Assembly: GCA_018058445.1 (NCBI GenBank)
Contig: JAGOZY010000001.1
Span: 1-17,654 of the forward strand
Reading direction: 5' to 3'
Source: Negativicutes bacterium
GTDB lineage: Bacteria > Bacillota > Negativicutes > JAGOZY01
DNA length: 17,654 nt
Position 1 is the first letter of the stretch; every line of letters starts with the position of its first letter. A program made the translations under genes and the position numbers. Positions 629 to 14,355 of this stretch are shown here, piece by piece. The notes beneath the pieces were generated by a model. The model ran no database searches. It was not told the DNA's origin and was given only the letters and a program-made list of their open reading frames with translations.

Positions 629-642
629 TGGAGGAAAAAAAG

Positions 643-1470
643 ATGGATACGATTTTATCCGCTCAGAATATAAGCTTTCAATATCGGAGCGACAAACTTG
701 TTTTGGAAAACTGCTCTTTTGAGCTAAAGCGCGGGAGCCGGAGTGTACTTCTGGGATCGAATGGGGCCGGGAAGTCGACTTTATTTTTTCTTCTAAATGG
801 AGTCTACAAACCGAAAGAAGGACAACTAGCTTTTGCTGGGGCGACCTATGAATATAGCCGATCGGGAATTAGCCAACTTCGCCAGAAAGTAGGATTGGTC
901 TTTCAAGACCCCGACGTCCAGCTTTTTGCGAGCACTGTTCTGGATGATGTGATCTTCGGCCCGATGAATCTGGGTGATACGCTAGAAGTTGCCGAGAAAA
1001 AAGCGCGAGCGGCTTTAGAGGCAGTCGGGCTTAGCGGACGCGAAGATGCTCCCCCTCATATGCTCAGTCATGGGCAGAAAAAGCGAGTAGCTCTAGCTGG
1101 AGTTCTTGCGATGAATCCAGATGTGATTATTATGGATGAGCCAACTGCTGGACTGGATTACGAAGGTACTCAGAAGCTAAATGAACTGATTGACTCTCTC
1201 GCAGAGCAAGGAAAAACGTTGCTGATTGCCACCCATGAAGTGGATTGGGCACTAGCTTGGGCGGATATGGCCTACGTTCTCCACTCCGGAAAAATCGAAA
1301 CGGTGGGGCATCCATCGGAGATCTTTTCGAAAGGGAATCATAAAGAGTTGGGGTTTGGAAAACCAATTGTCAGCCAGGTACTGGAATCGTGTAATTGCCC
1401 GATTGATAAACAATCACCACGGGATGCAAAAGAGCTTTGTCGATGGCTGGAAAATAACAAAAAAGTGTAA
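643..1470 (+). CDS. cbiO: Cobalt ECF transporter ATPase CbiO
   Basis: Cytoplasmic ABC ATPase that powers the cobalt ECF transporter together with CbiQ. All nucleotide-binding motifs are visible, numbered from the ATG at 643: Walker A GSNGAGKST at 38-46, Q-loop Q88 in VFQDPDVQLF, signature LSHGQ at 141-145, Walker B VIIMDE at 161-166, D-loop AGLD and switch His198 (THEVD). The 275-residue length is normal for the family. I chose 643 because GGAGG sits 8 bases upstream. An in-frame ATG at 628, overlapping the cbiQ stop, would add five residues. The C-terminal ~50 residues form the usual short tail after the ATPase domain. The order cbiQ-cbiO followed by cbiK argues for cobalt feeding B12 synthesis. 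Identity is very secure at family level; cobalt specificity is inferred from context. Confidence 0.93.
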   Translation: MDTILSAQNISFQYRSDKLVLENCSFELKRGSRSVLLGSNGAGKSTLFFLLNGVYKPKEGQLAFAGATYEYSRSGISQLRQKVGLVFQDPDVQLFASTVLDDVIFGPMNLGDTLEVAEKKARAALEAVGLSGREDAPPHMLSHGQKKRVALAGVLAMNPDVIIMDEPTAGLDYEGTQKLNELIDSLAEQGKTLLIATHEVDWALAWADMAYVLHSGKIETVGHPSEIFSKGNHKELGFGKPIVSQVLESCNCPIDKQSPRDAKELCRWLENNKKV

Positions 1471-1497: not shown

Positions 1498-1675
1498 TGT
1501 TGATAACTTTGGTCTAGAAAACGAAGTTTTCAAGAGGGTTATCCCCAGAAAACTGTAGTTGTCCCCACGGTTATCCCCAAAAACACCCTCGAAAAATAGC
1601 AAAATGTGGAATTTTATAAAAGTTATCCACAGAATCCACAGATCAAAGAGGGCATTTTTGGATAAGAAATCCACA
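1498..1675. repeat. Cluster of DnaA-box-like sequences between cbiO and cbiK
   Basis: The gap holds one perfect DnaA box, TTATCCACA at 1623-1631. One-mismatch copies are at 1539-1547 and 1571-1579 (both TTATCCCCA), at 1498-1506 on the minus strand (TTATCAACA) and at 1657-1665 on the minus strand (TTATCCAAA). Weaker two-mismatch copies lie at 1559-1567, 1605-1613 (minus), 1632-1640 and 1667-1675. That is about nine sites in 178 bp in both orientations. The boxes are seen directly; DnaA binding is an inference. No dnaA, dnaN or AT-rich unwinding element is evident. No convincing gene lies in this gap. Confidence 0.6.
1517..1554 (+). repeat. Alternative inverted repeats GAAAAC/GTTTTC
   Basis: GAAAAC (1517-1522), GTTTTC (1526-1531) and GAAAAC (1548-1553) can form two mutually exclusive hairpins just downstream of cbiO. 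The second would put the box at 1539 in its loop. There is no T-run, so it is not a standard terminator. Its role is unknown. Confidence 0.4.
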
Positions 1676-1706: not shown

Positions 1707-2507
1707 ATGAGACGAGGACTATTAGCTGTGAGCTTCGGAAGTTCCTACCCCACTGCAGTGGAGCGAGCGATTGTGCCCACAGAAGAAGACCTAGGAAAAG
1801 CCTTTCCCGAGTTTACTATTTATCGGGCTTTTACATCTCCCCGGATTCGGGCCAAGATCTTGAAGCGTGACGGCATTCAGATGCCTAGCCCGGAAGAAGC
1901 GTGGGAAAAAATGGCGGCTGACGGGATCGAAGAAGTACTGGTTCAGCCTCTTCAAGTAGTTCCCGGTGAGGAGTATGCGAAAGTCGCTCATTTAACTGTT
2001 AAAATGAAAAATAGTGATAAGTTTAAGCGAATCGAGATCGGTCGGACGCTGCTTCACTATAATGGACAGGAAGATCGTCCAGATGACTACCATGAAGTGG
2101 CGGAGATACTTGCGTCTGAATTACCCACTCCGGGCCTTCATGAAGGAATTATTTTGATGGGTCACGGTTCACCAAGTCATCCGAATGTGGCCTATGAACT
2201 AATGGGCATTCGTTTTCAGCGTCGTTGGCCTTGGATTCATCTGGCAACAGTTGAAGGGGGGCCTGGATTAGCGGACCTTTTTCCAGCTCTAAAAGCAGCA
2301 GGATACCGAAAAATTCATTTGGTTCCTTTTATGTGGGTCGCTGGCGACCATGCGCTCAATGACATGGCCGGCGAAGAAGAGTCTTGGAAAACGGAGCTGG
2401 AAGCCCAAGGCTATAAAGTCATTTGTCATTTAAATGGGATGGGTGAATATCCGAAAATGCGGGAAATTTTTGTTCGCCGTGCTCAAGATGCCTGGTCGGA
2501 TAAATAA
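1707..2507 (+). CDS. cbiK: Anaerobic sirohydrochlorin cobaltochelatase CbiK
   Basis: Inserts Co2+ into sirohydrochlorin to give cobalt-sirohydrochlorin (cobalt-factor II), the committing step of the anaerobic cobalamin pathway; cytoplasmic. The 266 residues match the CbiK family along their length: N-terminal LLAVSFGSSY, then RAFTSPRI, VPGEEY, MGHGS, ATVEGGPGL and VAGDHALNDMAG. The metal-site residues known from Salmonella CbiK have clear counterparts at Glu89, His153 and His215. I place the start at ATG 1707, 8 bases after GGAG within AAAAGGAG. An in-frame TTG at 1701 is possible but too close to that site. There is no signal peptide, unlike periplasmic CbiK forms of some sulfate reducers. 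It follows the DnaA-box gap and is closed by the terminator at 2557. It is probably co-transcribed with cbiQO, unless the gap hides a promoter. Confidence 0.95.
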   Translation: MRRGLLAVSFGSSYPTAVERAIVPTEEDLGKAFPEFTIYRAFTSPRIRAKILKRDGIQMPSPEEAWEKMAADGIEEVLVQPLQVVPGEEYAKVAHLTVKMKNSDKFKRIEIGRTLLHYNGQEDRPDDYHEVAEILASELPTPGLHEGIILMGHGSPSHPNVAYELMGIRFQRRWPWIHLATVEGGPGLADLFPALKAAGYRKIHLVPFMWVAGDHALNDMAGEEESWKTELEAQGYKVICHLNGMGEYPKMREIFVRRAQDAWSDK

Positions 2508-2699: not shown

Positions 2700-3506
2700 G
2701 TGGTGGATGAACAAGTTCTTTTTGCGCTAGGCTTATCTCTGTTTGCCGGTCTTGCGACTGGAATTGGTAGCCTAATCGCACTTTTTGCCAAGCGTACTCA
2801 CACAGGACTACTTTCGGTCGGGCTAGGATTCTCTGGTGGAGTTATGATTTATGTTTCGATGATGGAGCTTTTGCCGGATGGTATGGAAGCGGTTCTCCAT
2901 TATATGCCCGGAAGAATGGGACAATTTATTACTTTGGCCGCATTTTTTGGTGGAATGGGCGTTTTTGTACTGATTGATAAAATGCTTCCGGAAGAGGTAA
3001 ATCCTCACGAGGCTCATCGAGTCGAGGAAATGAGCGGTACAGAAAATCACCATAAGCTTCAGCGGATGGGTATCTTTACCGCTTTAGCTGTTGCGATTCA
3101 TAACTTTCCTGAAGGAATCGCCACGTTTGTCGGCGGGCTGCAAAATCCAGAGATTGGTATTGCAATCGCTGCTGCTGTTGCGTTACATAATATTCCCGAG
3201 GGGATTGCTGTGTCGGTTCCTATTTTCTTTGCAACGGGAGATCGTTGGAAAGCCTTTAAATATTCCTTTTTATCCGGGCTTGCCGAACCAGTTGGCGCGC
3301 TAGTGGCTTATTTATTGCTCCGACCCTGGCTGGATGGAATCGGCCTAGGACTAGTTTTTGCTGCAGTTGCCGGAATGATGGTGATGATCTCCTTGGATGA
3401 ACTTTTGCCAGCAGCAAGGGAATATGGTCAGCCTCATCTGTCTATGTATGGGATGGTTGCCGGAATGATGGTCATGGCGGCGGGGCTCATTTTCTTACAG
3501 GTCTAA
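2700..3506 (+). CDS. ZIP-family divalent metal transporter (ZupT-like)
   Basis: Inner-membrane metal permease of the ZIP family, 268 residues, with about eight hydrophobic segments. The two metal-binding helices are intact: HNFPEG at 134-139 and HNIPEG at 163-168, matching the paired HN..EG motifs of E. coli ZupT. A histidine-containing stretch (HEAHR at 103-107, HH at 117-118) fits the usual cytoplasmic loop. The start is GTG at 2700 or GTG at 2703; AGGTGA at 2691-2696 gives the better spacing to 2703. The gene has its own promoter and sits between cbiK and a cobalamin riboswitch. The substrate may be zinc or another divalent ion. A role in cobalt uptake is suggested only by location, and it is not itself downstream of a riboswitch. 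No terminator is obvious after it. Confidence 0.88.
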   Translation: MVDEQVLFALGLSLFAGLATGIGSLIALFAKRTHTGLLSVGLGFSGGVMIYVSMMELLPDGMEAVLHYMPGRMGQFITLAAFFGGMGVFVLIDKMLPEEVNPHEAHRVEEMSGTENHHKLQRMGIFTALAVAIHNFPEGIATFVGGLQNPEIGIAIAAAVALHNIPEGIAVSVPIFFATGDRWKAFKYSFLSGLAEPVGALVAYLLLRPWLDGIGLGLVFAAVAGMMVMISLDELLPAAREYGQPHLSMYGMVAGMMVMAAGLIFLQV

Positions 3507-3549: not shown

Positions 3550-3572
3550 GATAGATAACTGAATAGTTGCCA

Positions 3573-3760
3573 AAAGAGGTGCCCTTTGGGGCTTAATAGG
3601 GAAGTCCGGTGTAAATCCGGTGCGGTCCCGCCACTGTAACGAGGAGTAATGTCCGCAAATCCACTGGGTCGAAGGCCTGGGAAGGAGGACAAAGCGATGA
3701 ATCGGAGCCAGGAGACCTACCTCTTTGAGTATCACCGTTTGAACCTGCGAGCGAAGGGGA
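3573..3760 (+). promoter_or_regulatory. Cobalamin riboswitch 1 (upstream of cbiL)
   Basis: AdoCbl-class aptamer. The conserved blocks occur in order: GGTGCC near 3579, TTAATAGGGAAGTCCGGTG from 3593, GCGGTCCCGCCACTGTAAC from about 3622, and the B12 box AGCCAGGAGACC at 3706-3717. The closing strands AAAGAGGT (3573-3580) and ACCTCTTT (3719-3726) pair. B12 binding should lower cbiL expression. The expression platform that follows contains a perfect hairpin and a T-run. Confidence 0.95.
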
Positions 3761-10062: not shown

Positions 10063-11412
10063 ATGGATATCTCAGCAGCAGCCTGGGCATCGATTATTGC
10101 CCTAGTAATCGTAGTAGGGATCTCTTGTGTCAACGAAGACCTTAATGTCGGTATTTTATCTATCGGTTTTGCAATTATTGTCGGTGGTGTTTTTAGCGGG
10201 CTAAGTGGCGCTAAAGTCATGAGTTTCTTCCCAACTAGTTTATTTATGATCTTGGCTGGGGTGACGTTCATGTTTGGTATCGCCCAAACGAATGGTACGA
10301 TGGAAAAGCTCACAGCCTACTCTGTACGAGTATGTAAAGGAAATAATGCGTTAATTCCTTTAATTGTTTATGTCATTACGTCGGTTTTGACAACGATTGG
10401 ACCTGGTAACATCGCAGCAACAGCTCTCTTGGCTCCGGTTATGATGGCGATTGCCACTCGTGTCGGTATGTCTGCGTTCCTGATGACATTGCTTGTTGTC
10501 GGCGCGGCAAATGGCGCGGCATTCTCACCTTTTGCTCCAACGGGAATTATTTCTAATGGAATTATCGCTAAAATGGCAAGCGAACTGGGTCTTGCAGAGG
10601 CTTCTCTGAATGGTCTAGCTTGGAAAATTCACTTCAACTCCATGTTTGCTCAAGGTTTCGTAAACGTCGGTGGTTTCCTTGTTTTTGGCGGTTGGGCATG
10701 GATCATGAACCAACGTGGGAAAACAGTCGATATTGATGAACTGGCTCCAAAACCAGAGCCTTTCAACAAGCAACAAGTCATGACCATTTGGGCAATTGTC
10801 CTTTTGATTTTACTCGTTGTTGTTCCTGGTCTACCAGGAATGAAAGCGATTGTTCCAAAACAAGTTCAGCTCATGACAGCAAACGTCGGATCTGTAGCGT
10901 TTATTCTTTCCGGCTTCTTGCTCCTGTTTCAAGCTGGCGACAGCAAAGCAGCGATCAAAGCAATGCCTTGGGGCGTTATGATGATGGTTTGCGGTGTGTC
11001 TGTCTTGATTGAAGTCATGGACCAATCGGGCGGACTGAATGCACTGGTCAAAATTATCGGCGCGGTATCAAATCCGATCACCGTTAATGGTTGGCTTGGA
11101 TTTATCACAGGTTTGATCTCGGCGTACTCCAGTTCATCTGGTGTTGTCATGCCGATGTTCCTGCCAATGGTACCAGGACTGATCAAAGAAATTGGCGGCG
11201 GAAATCCAGTGGCTCTAATTTCTTCTATCAACATCGGTTCTCACTTAGTGGATACTTCACCTCTTTCCACTTTAGGTGCTCTTTGTATCGCAAGTGCTGG
11301 TGAGCATGAAGATAAAGGCGCTCTGTTCCGTAGACTTCTGATCTGGGGTCTCTCCATGTCAGTTGTCAGCGGTCTGGTTTGTCTCCTGTTCTTCGGTGTT
11401 CTTGGCCTCTAA
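10063..11412 (+). CDS. MatC-like (SLC13/IT superfamily) carboxylate permease, copy 1
   Basis: Polytopic membrane transporter of 449 residues resembling the MatC N-terminal/dicarboxylate carrier group within the ion-transporter superfamily. It shows about 12 hydrophobic stretches, two re-entrant-type segments such as TSVLTTIGPGNIAATALLAP and SAYSSSSGVVMPMFLPMVPG, and the substrate-region AFSPFAPTGIISNGI. ATG 10063 follows GGAGGAG. Likely substrates are small carboxylates such as malonate or C4-dicarboxylates; the sequence does not decide. Position after an OadB-type subunit and a LysR gene supports a carboxylate role. It is about 96% identical in protein sequence to the next gene, with some 17 substitutions counted by eye, mostly conservative. 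Many third-position differences show that both copies are under selection. Confidence 0.85.
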   Translation: MDISAAAWASIIALVIVVGISCVNEDLNVGILSIGFAIIVGGVFSGLSGAKVMSFFPTSLFMILAGVTFMFGIAQTNGTMEKLTAYSVRVCKGNNALIPLIVYVITSVLTTIGPGNIAATALLAPVMMAIATRVGMSAFLMTLLVVGAANGAAFSPFAPTGIISNGIIAKMASELGLAEASLNGLAWKIHFNSMFAQGFVNVGGFLVFGGWAWIMNQRGKTVDIDELAPKPEPFNKQQVMTIWAIVLLILLVVVPGLPGMKAIVPKQVQLMTANVGSVAFILSGFLLLFQAGDSKAAIKAMPWGVMMMVCGVSVLIEVMDQSGGLNALVKIIGAVSNPITVNGWLGFITGLISAYSSSSGVVMPMFLPMVPGLIKEIGGGNPVALISSINIGSHLVDTSPLSTLGALCIASAGEHEDKGALFRRLLIWGLSMSVVSGLVCLLFFGVLGL

Positions 11413-11770: not shown

Positions 11771-13120
11771 ATGGATATTTCAGCAGCAGCCTGGGCATCG
11801 ATTATTGCCCTCGTCATCGTAGTAGGAATCTCATGTGTCAACGAAGATCTTAACGTCGGTATTTTGTCTATCGGTTTCGCAATTATTGTAGGCGGTATTT
11901 TTAGTGGGTTAAGTGGCGCTAAAGTCATGAGCTTCTTCCCAACTAGCTTATTCATGATCTTAGCTGGGGTAACTTTCATGTTTGGGCTCGCTCAAACAAA
12001 TGGTACGATGGAAAAACTTACAGCCTACTCTGTGCGGGTATGTAAAGGAAACAACGCATTAATTCCTTTAATTGTTTATGTCATTACTTCGGTTTTGACA
12101 ACGATCGGACCTGGCAACATTGCAGCAACAGCTCTCTTGGCCCCGGTCATGATGGCGATTGCCACTCGTGTGGGTATGTCTGCGTTCCTGATGACACTAC
12201 TTGTCGTCGGCGCGGCAAATGGCGCGGCATTCTCGCCTTTTGCTCCAACGGGAATTATTTCTAATGGAATTATCGCCAAAATGGCGGGTGATCTTGGCCT
12301 GGCAGAGTCGTCCCTCAATGGGCTAGCTTGGAAGATTCACTTCAACTCTATGTTTGCTCAAGGTTTCGTTAACATTGGCGGTTTCCTCGTTTTTGGTGGT
12401 TGGGCATGGATTACGAACCAACGTGGAAAAACAGTCGATATTGATGAACTGGCTCCAAAACCAGATCCTTTCAATAAACAACAAGTCATGACCATCTGGG
12501 CAATTGTCCTCTTGATTTTACTCGTTGTTGTCCCTGGCTTACCAGGAATGAAAGCGATTGTTCCAAAACAAATTCTGCTCATGACGTCCAACGTCGGCTC
12601 TGTGGCGTTTATTCTTTCCGGTTTCTTGCTTCTGTTCCAAGCTGGTGACAGTAAAGCAGCGATCAAAGCGATGCCTTGGGGCGTTATGATGATGGTTTGT
12701 GGTGTGTCTGTCTTGATTGAAGTCATGGATAAATCAGGCGGACTAAATGCACTGGTCAAAATTATCGGTGCGGTATCAAATCCGATCACCGTTAATGGTT
12801 GGCTTGGATTTATCACAGGCCTAATCTCCGCGTACTCCAGTTCATCTGGTGTTGTTATGCCGATGTTCCTGCCAATGGTACCAGGACTGATCAAAGAAAT
12901 TGGCGGCGGAAATCCAGTAGCCTTGATTTCTTCTATCAACATCGGTGCTCACTTAGTGGATACTTCACCTCTTTCCACTTTAGGTGCTCTCTGTATCGCA
13001 AGTGCTGGCGAACACGAAGATAAAGGTGCTTTATTCCGTACACTTCTGATCTGGGGTCTCTCCATGTCGGTTGTTGGCGGTCTGGTTTGCCTCCTATTCT
13101 TCGGTATTCTCGGCTTCTAA
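11771..13120 (+). CDS. MatC-like (SLC13/IT superfamily) carboxylate permease, copy 2
   Basis: Duplicate of the gene at 10063, also 449 residues with the same membrane layout and the same signature segments. Changes from copy 1 include GVFSG to GIFSG, FGIAQ to FGLAQ, SELGLAEAS to GDLGLAESS, QVQLMTAN to QILLMTSN, MDQSGG to MDKSGG, INIGSHL to INIGAHL and LFRRLL to LFRTLL. The QVQ-to-QIL, Q-to-K and R-to-T changes are the least conservative and could alter affinity. ATG 11771 is matched to copy 1 and follows GGAGGAG by 7 bases; a longer frame from ATG 11711 would translate the leader and is rejected. Because a terminator follows copy 1, this gene probably uses the promoter-like site at 11466. Confidence 0.85.
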   Translation: MDISAAAWASIIALVIVVGISCVNEDLNVGILSIGFAIIVGGIFSGLSGAKVMSFFPTSLFMILAGVTFMFGLAQTNGTMEKLTAYSVRVCKGNNALIPLIVYVITSVLTTIGPGNIAATALLAPVMMAIATRVGMSAFLMTLLVVGAANGAAFSPFAPTGIISNGIIAKMAGDLGLAESSLNGLAWKIHFNSMFAQGFVNIGGFLVFGGWAWITNQRGKTVDIDELAPKPDPFNKQQVMTIWAIVLLILLVVVPGLPGMKAIVPKQILLMTSNVGSVAFILSGFLLLFQAGDSKAAIKAMPWGVMMMVCGVSVLIEVMDKSGGLNALVKIIGAVSNPITVNGWLGFITGLISAYSSSSGVVMPMFLPMVPGLIKEIGGGNPVALISSINIGAHLVDTSPLSTLGALCIASAGEHEDKGALFRTLLIWGLSMSVVGGLVCLLFFGILGF

Positions 13121-14140: not shown

Positions 14141-14172
14141 AAAACTAGAGTTTTTGATAATTTAATAATTTG

Positions 14173-14355
14173 GATAAGGTGCCTTTCGGGGCTTAATAGG
14201 GAAGTCCGGTGTGGAACCGGCGCGGTCCCGCCACTGTAACGGGGAGCAACGCCAATAAGTGCCACTGAAATTATTTTGGGAAGGCTGGCGCGAAGCAATG
14301 AACCGGAGCCAGGAGAACTGCCTTATCGACGATCACCGGTTGGACCCACGAGCGA
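14173..14355 (+). promoter_or_regulatory. Cobalamin riboswitch 2 (upstream of TauE/SafE pair and cbiFGH)
   Basis: AdoCbl-class aptamer nearly identical in its core to riboswitch 1: GGTGCC, TTAATAGGGAAGTCCGGTG (from 14193), GCGGTCCCGCCACTGTAAC (from 14222) and B12 box AGCCAGGAGAAC (14307-14318), which has A for C near its end. The closing strands GATAAGG (14173-14179) and CCTTATC (14321-14327) pair. It should repress the following genes when B12 is plentiful. Confidence 0.95.

Follow-up and report, generated by a model that had tools for sequence, protein, structure and literature searches.

The question raised by this locus is why a dense group of predicted DnaA boxes should lie inside a cobalt/cobalamin operon. 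Most work on DnaA-box clusters away from oriC has been done in Escherichia coli and Bacillus subtilis. The window, i.e. the whole stretch of 17,654 nucleotides analysed here, is the entire contig C69 of a Negativicutes draft genome (G000; 1.32 Mb, 242 contigs, 74% complete), from whose assembly further clusters may be missing. The upstream neighbour of the cluster is cbiO (634–1470, forward strand), encoding a cobalt transporter ATPase (TIGR01166, 230.4 bits with a cut-off of 211.8), and the downstream neighbour is cbiK (1707–2507, forward strand), encoding a CbiK-type sirohydrochlorin cobaltochelatase. An earlier note on this DNA had named these genes correctly: CbiQ and CbiO scored above their model cut-offs, and the best model for CbiK was that of sirohydrochlorin cobaltochelatase (NF047852; 204.8 bits, below the strict cut-off of 400). 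Between the stop codon of cbiO (1468–1470) and the ATG of cbiK (1707) lies a gap of 236 bp. Directly after cbiK comes a ZupT-type metal transporter gene (2700–3506), as it does in G001, the related genome described below, and between the two lies a perfect 10-bp inverted repeat (2593–2615; TTTTATTCAC, loop AGA) that contains two weak box-like words and is terminator-like or operator-like. The window also carries two cobalamin riboswitches, one before cobI (3560–3738) and one before the TauE/cbiF region (14160–14339), and two neighbouring MatC/CitMHS-type transporter genes (10063–11412 and 11771–13120) whose proteins are 96% identical, a pair that appears to be a recent tandem duplication.

Recounting the boxes between cbiO and cbiK confirmed the cluster that the earlier note had described as one perfect box, four one-mismatch boxes and several weaker ones. 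At 1498–1675 we found eight predicted boxes, on both strands, that differ from TTATCCACA at no more than two positions; one is perfect, four carry a single mismatch and three carry two. The core is a double box on the forward strand (1623–1640), in which the perfect TTATCCACA at 1623 abuts a two-mismatch box at 1632. Upstream of this core lie the one-mismatch boxes TTATCAACA (1498–1506, reverse strand), TTATCCCCA (1539–1547, forward) and again TTATCCCCA (1571–1579, forward) as well as the two-mismatch box TTGTCCCCA (1559–1567, forward), while downstream of it lie the one-mismatch box TTATCCAAA (1657–1665, reverse) and the two-mismatch box AAATCCACA (1667–1675, forward), the last of the cluster, 31 bp from the ATG of cbiK.

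Among 100 relatives searched, the sole genome of the same family (labelled f1, covering both genomes) was G001, a draft 77% complete from a sister genus, whose CbiK is 55–56% identical to that of G000. A check of conservation between cbiO and cbiK, as the earlier note had suggested, revealed a cluster with two perfect boxes in G001, where the gap carries TTATCCACA, TTATACACA, one two-mismatch box and then TTATCCACA abutting CTATCCACA. Alignment of the two gaps matched the double boxes with each other and paired the last weak box, AAATCCACA, with ATTCCACA of G001; the boxes farther upstream vary in count and spacing between the two genomes. None of 28 other cbiK loci (L005–L032), all from other families and taken from the best-scoring matches, had three boxes in 180 bp. 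An alignment-based contig search returned the G001 record and Robinsoniella only, a single-protein contig search returned no relative, and a search against phages returned nothing. Survey of 34 further G001 stretches brought up a second cluster in that genome (L232, C12:7478–7562), with five boxes of at most one mismatch at −42, 0, +10, +19 and +34 (reversed). The box layout of this second cluster resembles that of the cbi cluster; the genes upstream of it belong to the IclR and C_GCAxxG_C_C families, and the contig ends downstream.

The abutting double box, searched for as TTATCCACANWATCCACA, was present in 98 of 300 genomes of the class, including both f1 genomes, and the backwards pattern in none among the matches listed; the 300 genomes are a sample with a large share from family f11 and with related, hence non-independent, members, and clusters that lack an abutting pair escape the pattern. 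The 138 double-box places correspond to 131 loci, 130 of which were fetched with flanks of about 1.5 kb (G282:C112:2899 was left out), and their neighbours were assigned by similarity to reference proteins. Of the 130, 29 lie between tsaD and the gene of a PdtaS-like histidine kinase. Another 40 have LCP, CYTH or MgtC/cytidine-deaminase genes nearby in varying combinations; in the 'MgtC' reference, MgtC and cytidine deaminase are fused into one frame, and its label denotes either. Seven are close to rsmG or parA, two are the cbi loci of f1, one has an ABC ATPase only, and 51 have no match to any reference.

Clusters at tsaD were detected by the double-box pattern in families f3, f9, f14, f15, f20, f23, f24 and f31, and a separate tsaD survey added f8 and f18. 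In 8 of the 27 genomes examined, the stretch downstream of tsaD carries at least three boxes in 180 bp; clusters at this position are common, though far from universal. Those between tsaD and the PdtaS-like kinase gene include L047–L056, L058, L059, L061, L064, L065, L141, L144–L154, L156 and L158, and most tsaD clusters have boxes near 0, +9 and +21 and a second group 64–85 bp on. The lack of a box between tsaD and the kinase gene in G001 prompted the idea that a tsaD cluster had relocated to the cbi operon, which we dropped because, with so few of the 27 genomes having at least three boxes there, absence is ordinary. In the G000 assembly, TsaD was not matched, and no box is present around the kinase relative (L202).

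Loci of similar layout in f11 had their left or their right neighbour gene in common, but not both; for example, one side may carry MscL or a lipoprotein and the other an MFS, BASS-like, panC or HD gene (names given by eye, except for MscL, a profile match). Relative to the double box, the 128 non-f1 loci had a mean of 0.45 boxes per offset and strand, and the commonest offsets were −12 (forward, 37 times), +21 (forward, 33 times) and +35 (reverse, 18 times). In G001 a weak box lies at −12 and in G000 a reversed box at +34, an offset matched within one base by 23 boxes among the non-f1 loci; the G000 offsets −84 and −125 are uncommon elsewhere. The recurring spacing is suggestive of a common arrangement and, as the loci are related, does not amount to a test. 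Helical phasing of same-strand boxes (p ~0.03 and 0.02 for the two f1 clusters, 0.004–0.07 for three others) is likewise suggestive only.

Several explanations of the cluster had to be weighed. The gap has a GC content of 0.386 and is AT-richer than the genes, which favours a chance build-up of boxes. However, the 178 bp hold five boxes with at most one mismatch, whereas dinucleotide shuffles of the window reached a maximum of three (2 of 2000) and 20,000 shuffles of the gap alone, keeping its dinucleotides, a maximum of two (22 of 20,000). For the equivalent gap of G001, four boxes were observed, and three were reached in 1 of 20,000 shuffles. The shuffles and the presence of a cluster in G001 refute chance, to which we assign next to no probability, indicating that 1498–1675 holds several boxes in a short stretch, more than expected by chance. 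The sequence TTATMCMCA was found 58 times in G000 versus 21 for the backwards control, and 71 versus 37 times in G001; among the places listed, triples within 250 bp were confined in G000 (58 places) to the dnaA-dnaN gap (C19) and the cbiO-cbiK gap, and in G001 to the gap between cbiO and cbiK. Twenty other strong G000 boxes (14 TTATCCACA and 6 TTATACACA), in a survey that left out other TTATCCCCA and TTATACCCA sites, showed at most two within 180 bp. By this comparison with the rest of the genome, a check of the kind that the earlier note had called for, the cbi cluster is the densest strong-box site in either draft, besides the G000 dnaA-dnaN gap. That gap, next to a dnaA cut by the contig end, likewise contains five boxes of at most one mismatch, and this equal density favours reading the cbi cluster as a chromosomal or former plasmid replication origin. 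Against this, dnaA is located on other contigs in both genomes. On C108 of G001, where the dnaA-dnaN gap has just two boxes with at most one mismatch, GC skew changes across dnaA from about −0.2 to +0.3, whereas on C105, where the cbi cluster lies 19.5 kb in, skew was positive in all 2-kb steps but one (−0.03 at 35 kb), including over minus-strand genes; the skew evidence is that of G001, the G000 contig having 1.5 kb left of the cluster. The cbi cluster is therefore outside oriC, away from both dnaA and the skew switch. The presence of the cluster in the equivalent operon gap of two genera also speaks against an origin, as does the lack of a replication protein among the window genes examined, the latter in line with the earlier note. 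On the position of dnaA and the G001 skew we rejected the origin that the note had offered as one option, considering it very improbable.

Two further explanations take the cobalamin setting at face value. The window is rich in cobalamin genes and has two cobalamin riboswitches, as would suit the argument that DnaA ties B12 to dNTP supply via a B12-dependent ribonucleotide reductase. This argument of the earlier note was weakened, as NrdJ (TIGR02504) was found in neither genome, whereas NrdD (TIGR02487) scored above its cut-off in both; with drafts 74% and 77% complete and TIGR02505 outside the search, absence is no proof, and we regard the link as highly doubtful. No report of a link between DnaA boxes and cobalamin was apparent in the partial literature texts consulted. 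Outside f1, 2 of 128 loci have a CobT-domain protein that ends ~50 bp away from the double box (L073 and L074; HMM on L073 only). This protein has a long C-terminal part after the CobT domain, and the cluster lies at the 3' end of its gene. L088, L089 and L092 match its C-terminal part only, where the fetched stretch ends, and all five loci are in f11. When 11 window proteins (cbiK, cbiO, cbiQ, ZIP, cobI, cbiD, cbiE, cbiT, cbiF, cbiG and cobJ) were compared with the fetched loci, the only matches outside f1 were to a CbiO-like ABC ATPase (L082, L143). With this set of proteins, cobalamin genes as preferred neighbours of clusters were rejected. Alternatively, the main role of DnaA here could be to regulate cbiK as a transcription factor, linking cobalt insertion to replication state. 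The end of the cluster just before the ATG and its presence in the equivalent G001 gap fit this proposal, as does, by analogy, the position of several B. subtilis clusters ahead of genes under activation or apparent repression by DnaA, according to an excerpt of PMC4447404; moreover, upstream of the cobalt-transport and cbiK genes of G001 their contig shows no riboswitch, the sole one found lying before cobI. However, a scan for the sigma-70 consensus gave no match in the gap and one in 1300–2800, at 2618 (shuffle mean 2.3), the 28 other cbiK loci have no cluster, and clusters elsewhere in the class lie by unrelated genes, often at gene 3' ends, and we consider control of cbiK as the main role unlikely. 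Of the coupling to cobalamin proposed earlier, the real, conserved cluster stands, while the coupling itself is disfavoured by these other cbiK loci and by like clusters beside unrelated genes. Given the lack of a riboswitch upstream of the G001 cobalt-transport and cbiK genes, DnaA might even be a dedicated cobaltochelatase regulator or, in reverse, transcription from cbiO might strip DnaA from the boxes such that cobalt demand nudges initiation, which we hold to be a long shot. Were DnaA a dedicated regulator, cobalt insertion would follow the replication cycle, and later steps would answer to B12 via riboswitches.

The explanation we favour, with somewhat better than even confidence, is that the gap holds an extra-oriC DnaA-box cluster (DBC) acting mainly as a DnaA sink, its place between cbiO and cbiK being incidental to that function. 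A DnaA sink fits best because like clusters recur with similar cores beside changing genes; the excess over shuffles, the G001 cluster, the class-wide double boxes, the unrelated neighbours and the second G001 cluster all count for it, and the cobalamin setting is probably incidental. Counting against it are the single sister genome, the fragmentation of both genomes and the uncommon offsets −84 and −125; conservation in the equivalent gap of two genera would also be expected of a cbiK operator and thus also fits that alternative. As judged from sequence, a real, conserved cluster is supported, and so is the titration locus considered in the earlier note. From the sequence we infer DnaA binding, sink function and any effect on cbiK. 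Binding of DnaA to the boxes would be cooperative, with the abutting double box as the probable nucleation site, and would draw DnaA from the pool for oriC. Once the locus is copied after initiation, the sink would be doubled, which would help to delay re-initiation. A possible local effect is that DnaA on the boxes also hinders or tunes transcription running into cbiK.

Known systems offer points of comparison. According to an excerpt, B. subtilis has eight DnaA regions of high affinity in vitro, among which one lies downstream of gcp (= tsaD) and several precede unrelated genes, some regulated by DnaA (PMC4447404). The DBCs there, e.g. downstream of gcp/ydiF, resemble the cbi cluster in their closely packed 9-mer boxes between genes and outside oriC, and many clusters of the class likewise lie just downstream of tsaD, whereas the predicted cluster described here, known from sequence, lies between cbiO and cbiK. 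As stated in part of a review, removal of six extra-oriC clusters in B. subtilis leads to early initiation, which is partly relieved by putting one cluster back at various places; the same text also states that clusters with significant roles in initiation control were not identified in B. subtilis (PMC5295017). Chromosomal boxes in E. coli control the amount of free DnaA, according to an excerpt of PMC12371093. The E. coli datA locus is also a box cluster outside oriC, downstream of an operon that may read through it (PMC10950094, in excerpt), but it needs an IHF site and promotes ATP hydrolysis. Read-through from cbiO as proposed above would strip DnaA in a similar way to the displacement of IHF by tRNA read-through at datA. 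In DnaA-regulated promoters such as B. subtilis sda and ywlC, boxes lie upstream of the gene start, as here, but no promoter was recognised in the cbi gap by the sigma-70 consensus scan. The dnaA-dnaN oriC is alike in box number and density, but the cbi cluster lies off dnaA and off the G001 skew switch.

About one in three of the sampled Negativicutes genomes carries such clusters, whose box spacing recurs and which, in the cobalt operon, have a family-specific position, while the position at the 3' end of tsaD is common to B. subtilis and at least ten Negativicutes families. Their comparison could show what selection keeps, i.e. the position of the cluster, its layout or the neighbour gene, and clusters across the class would offer new systems for testing DnaA titration.
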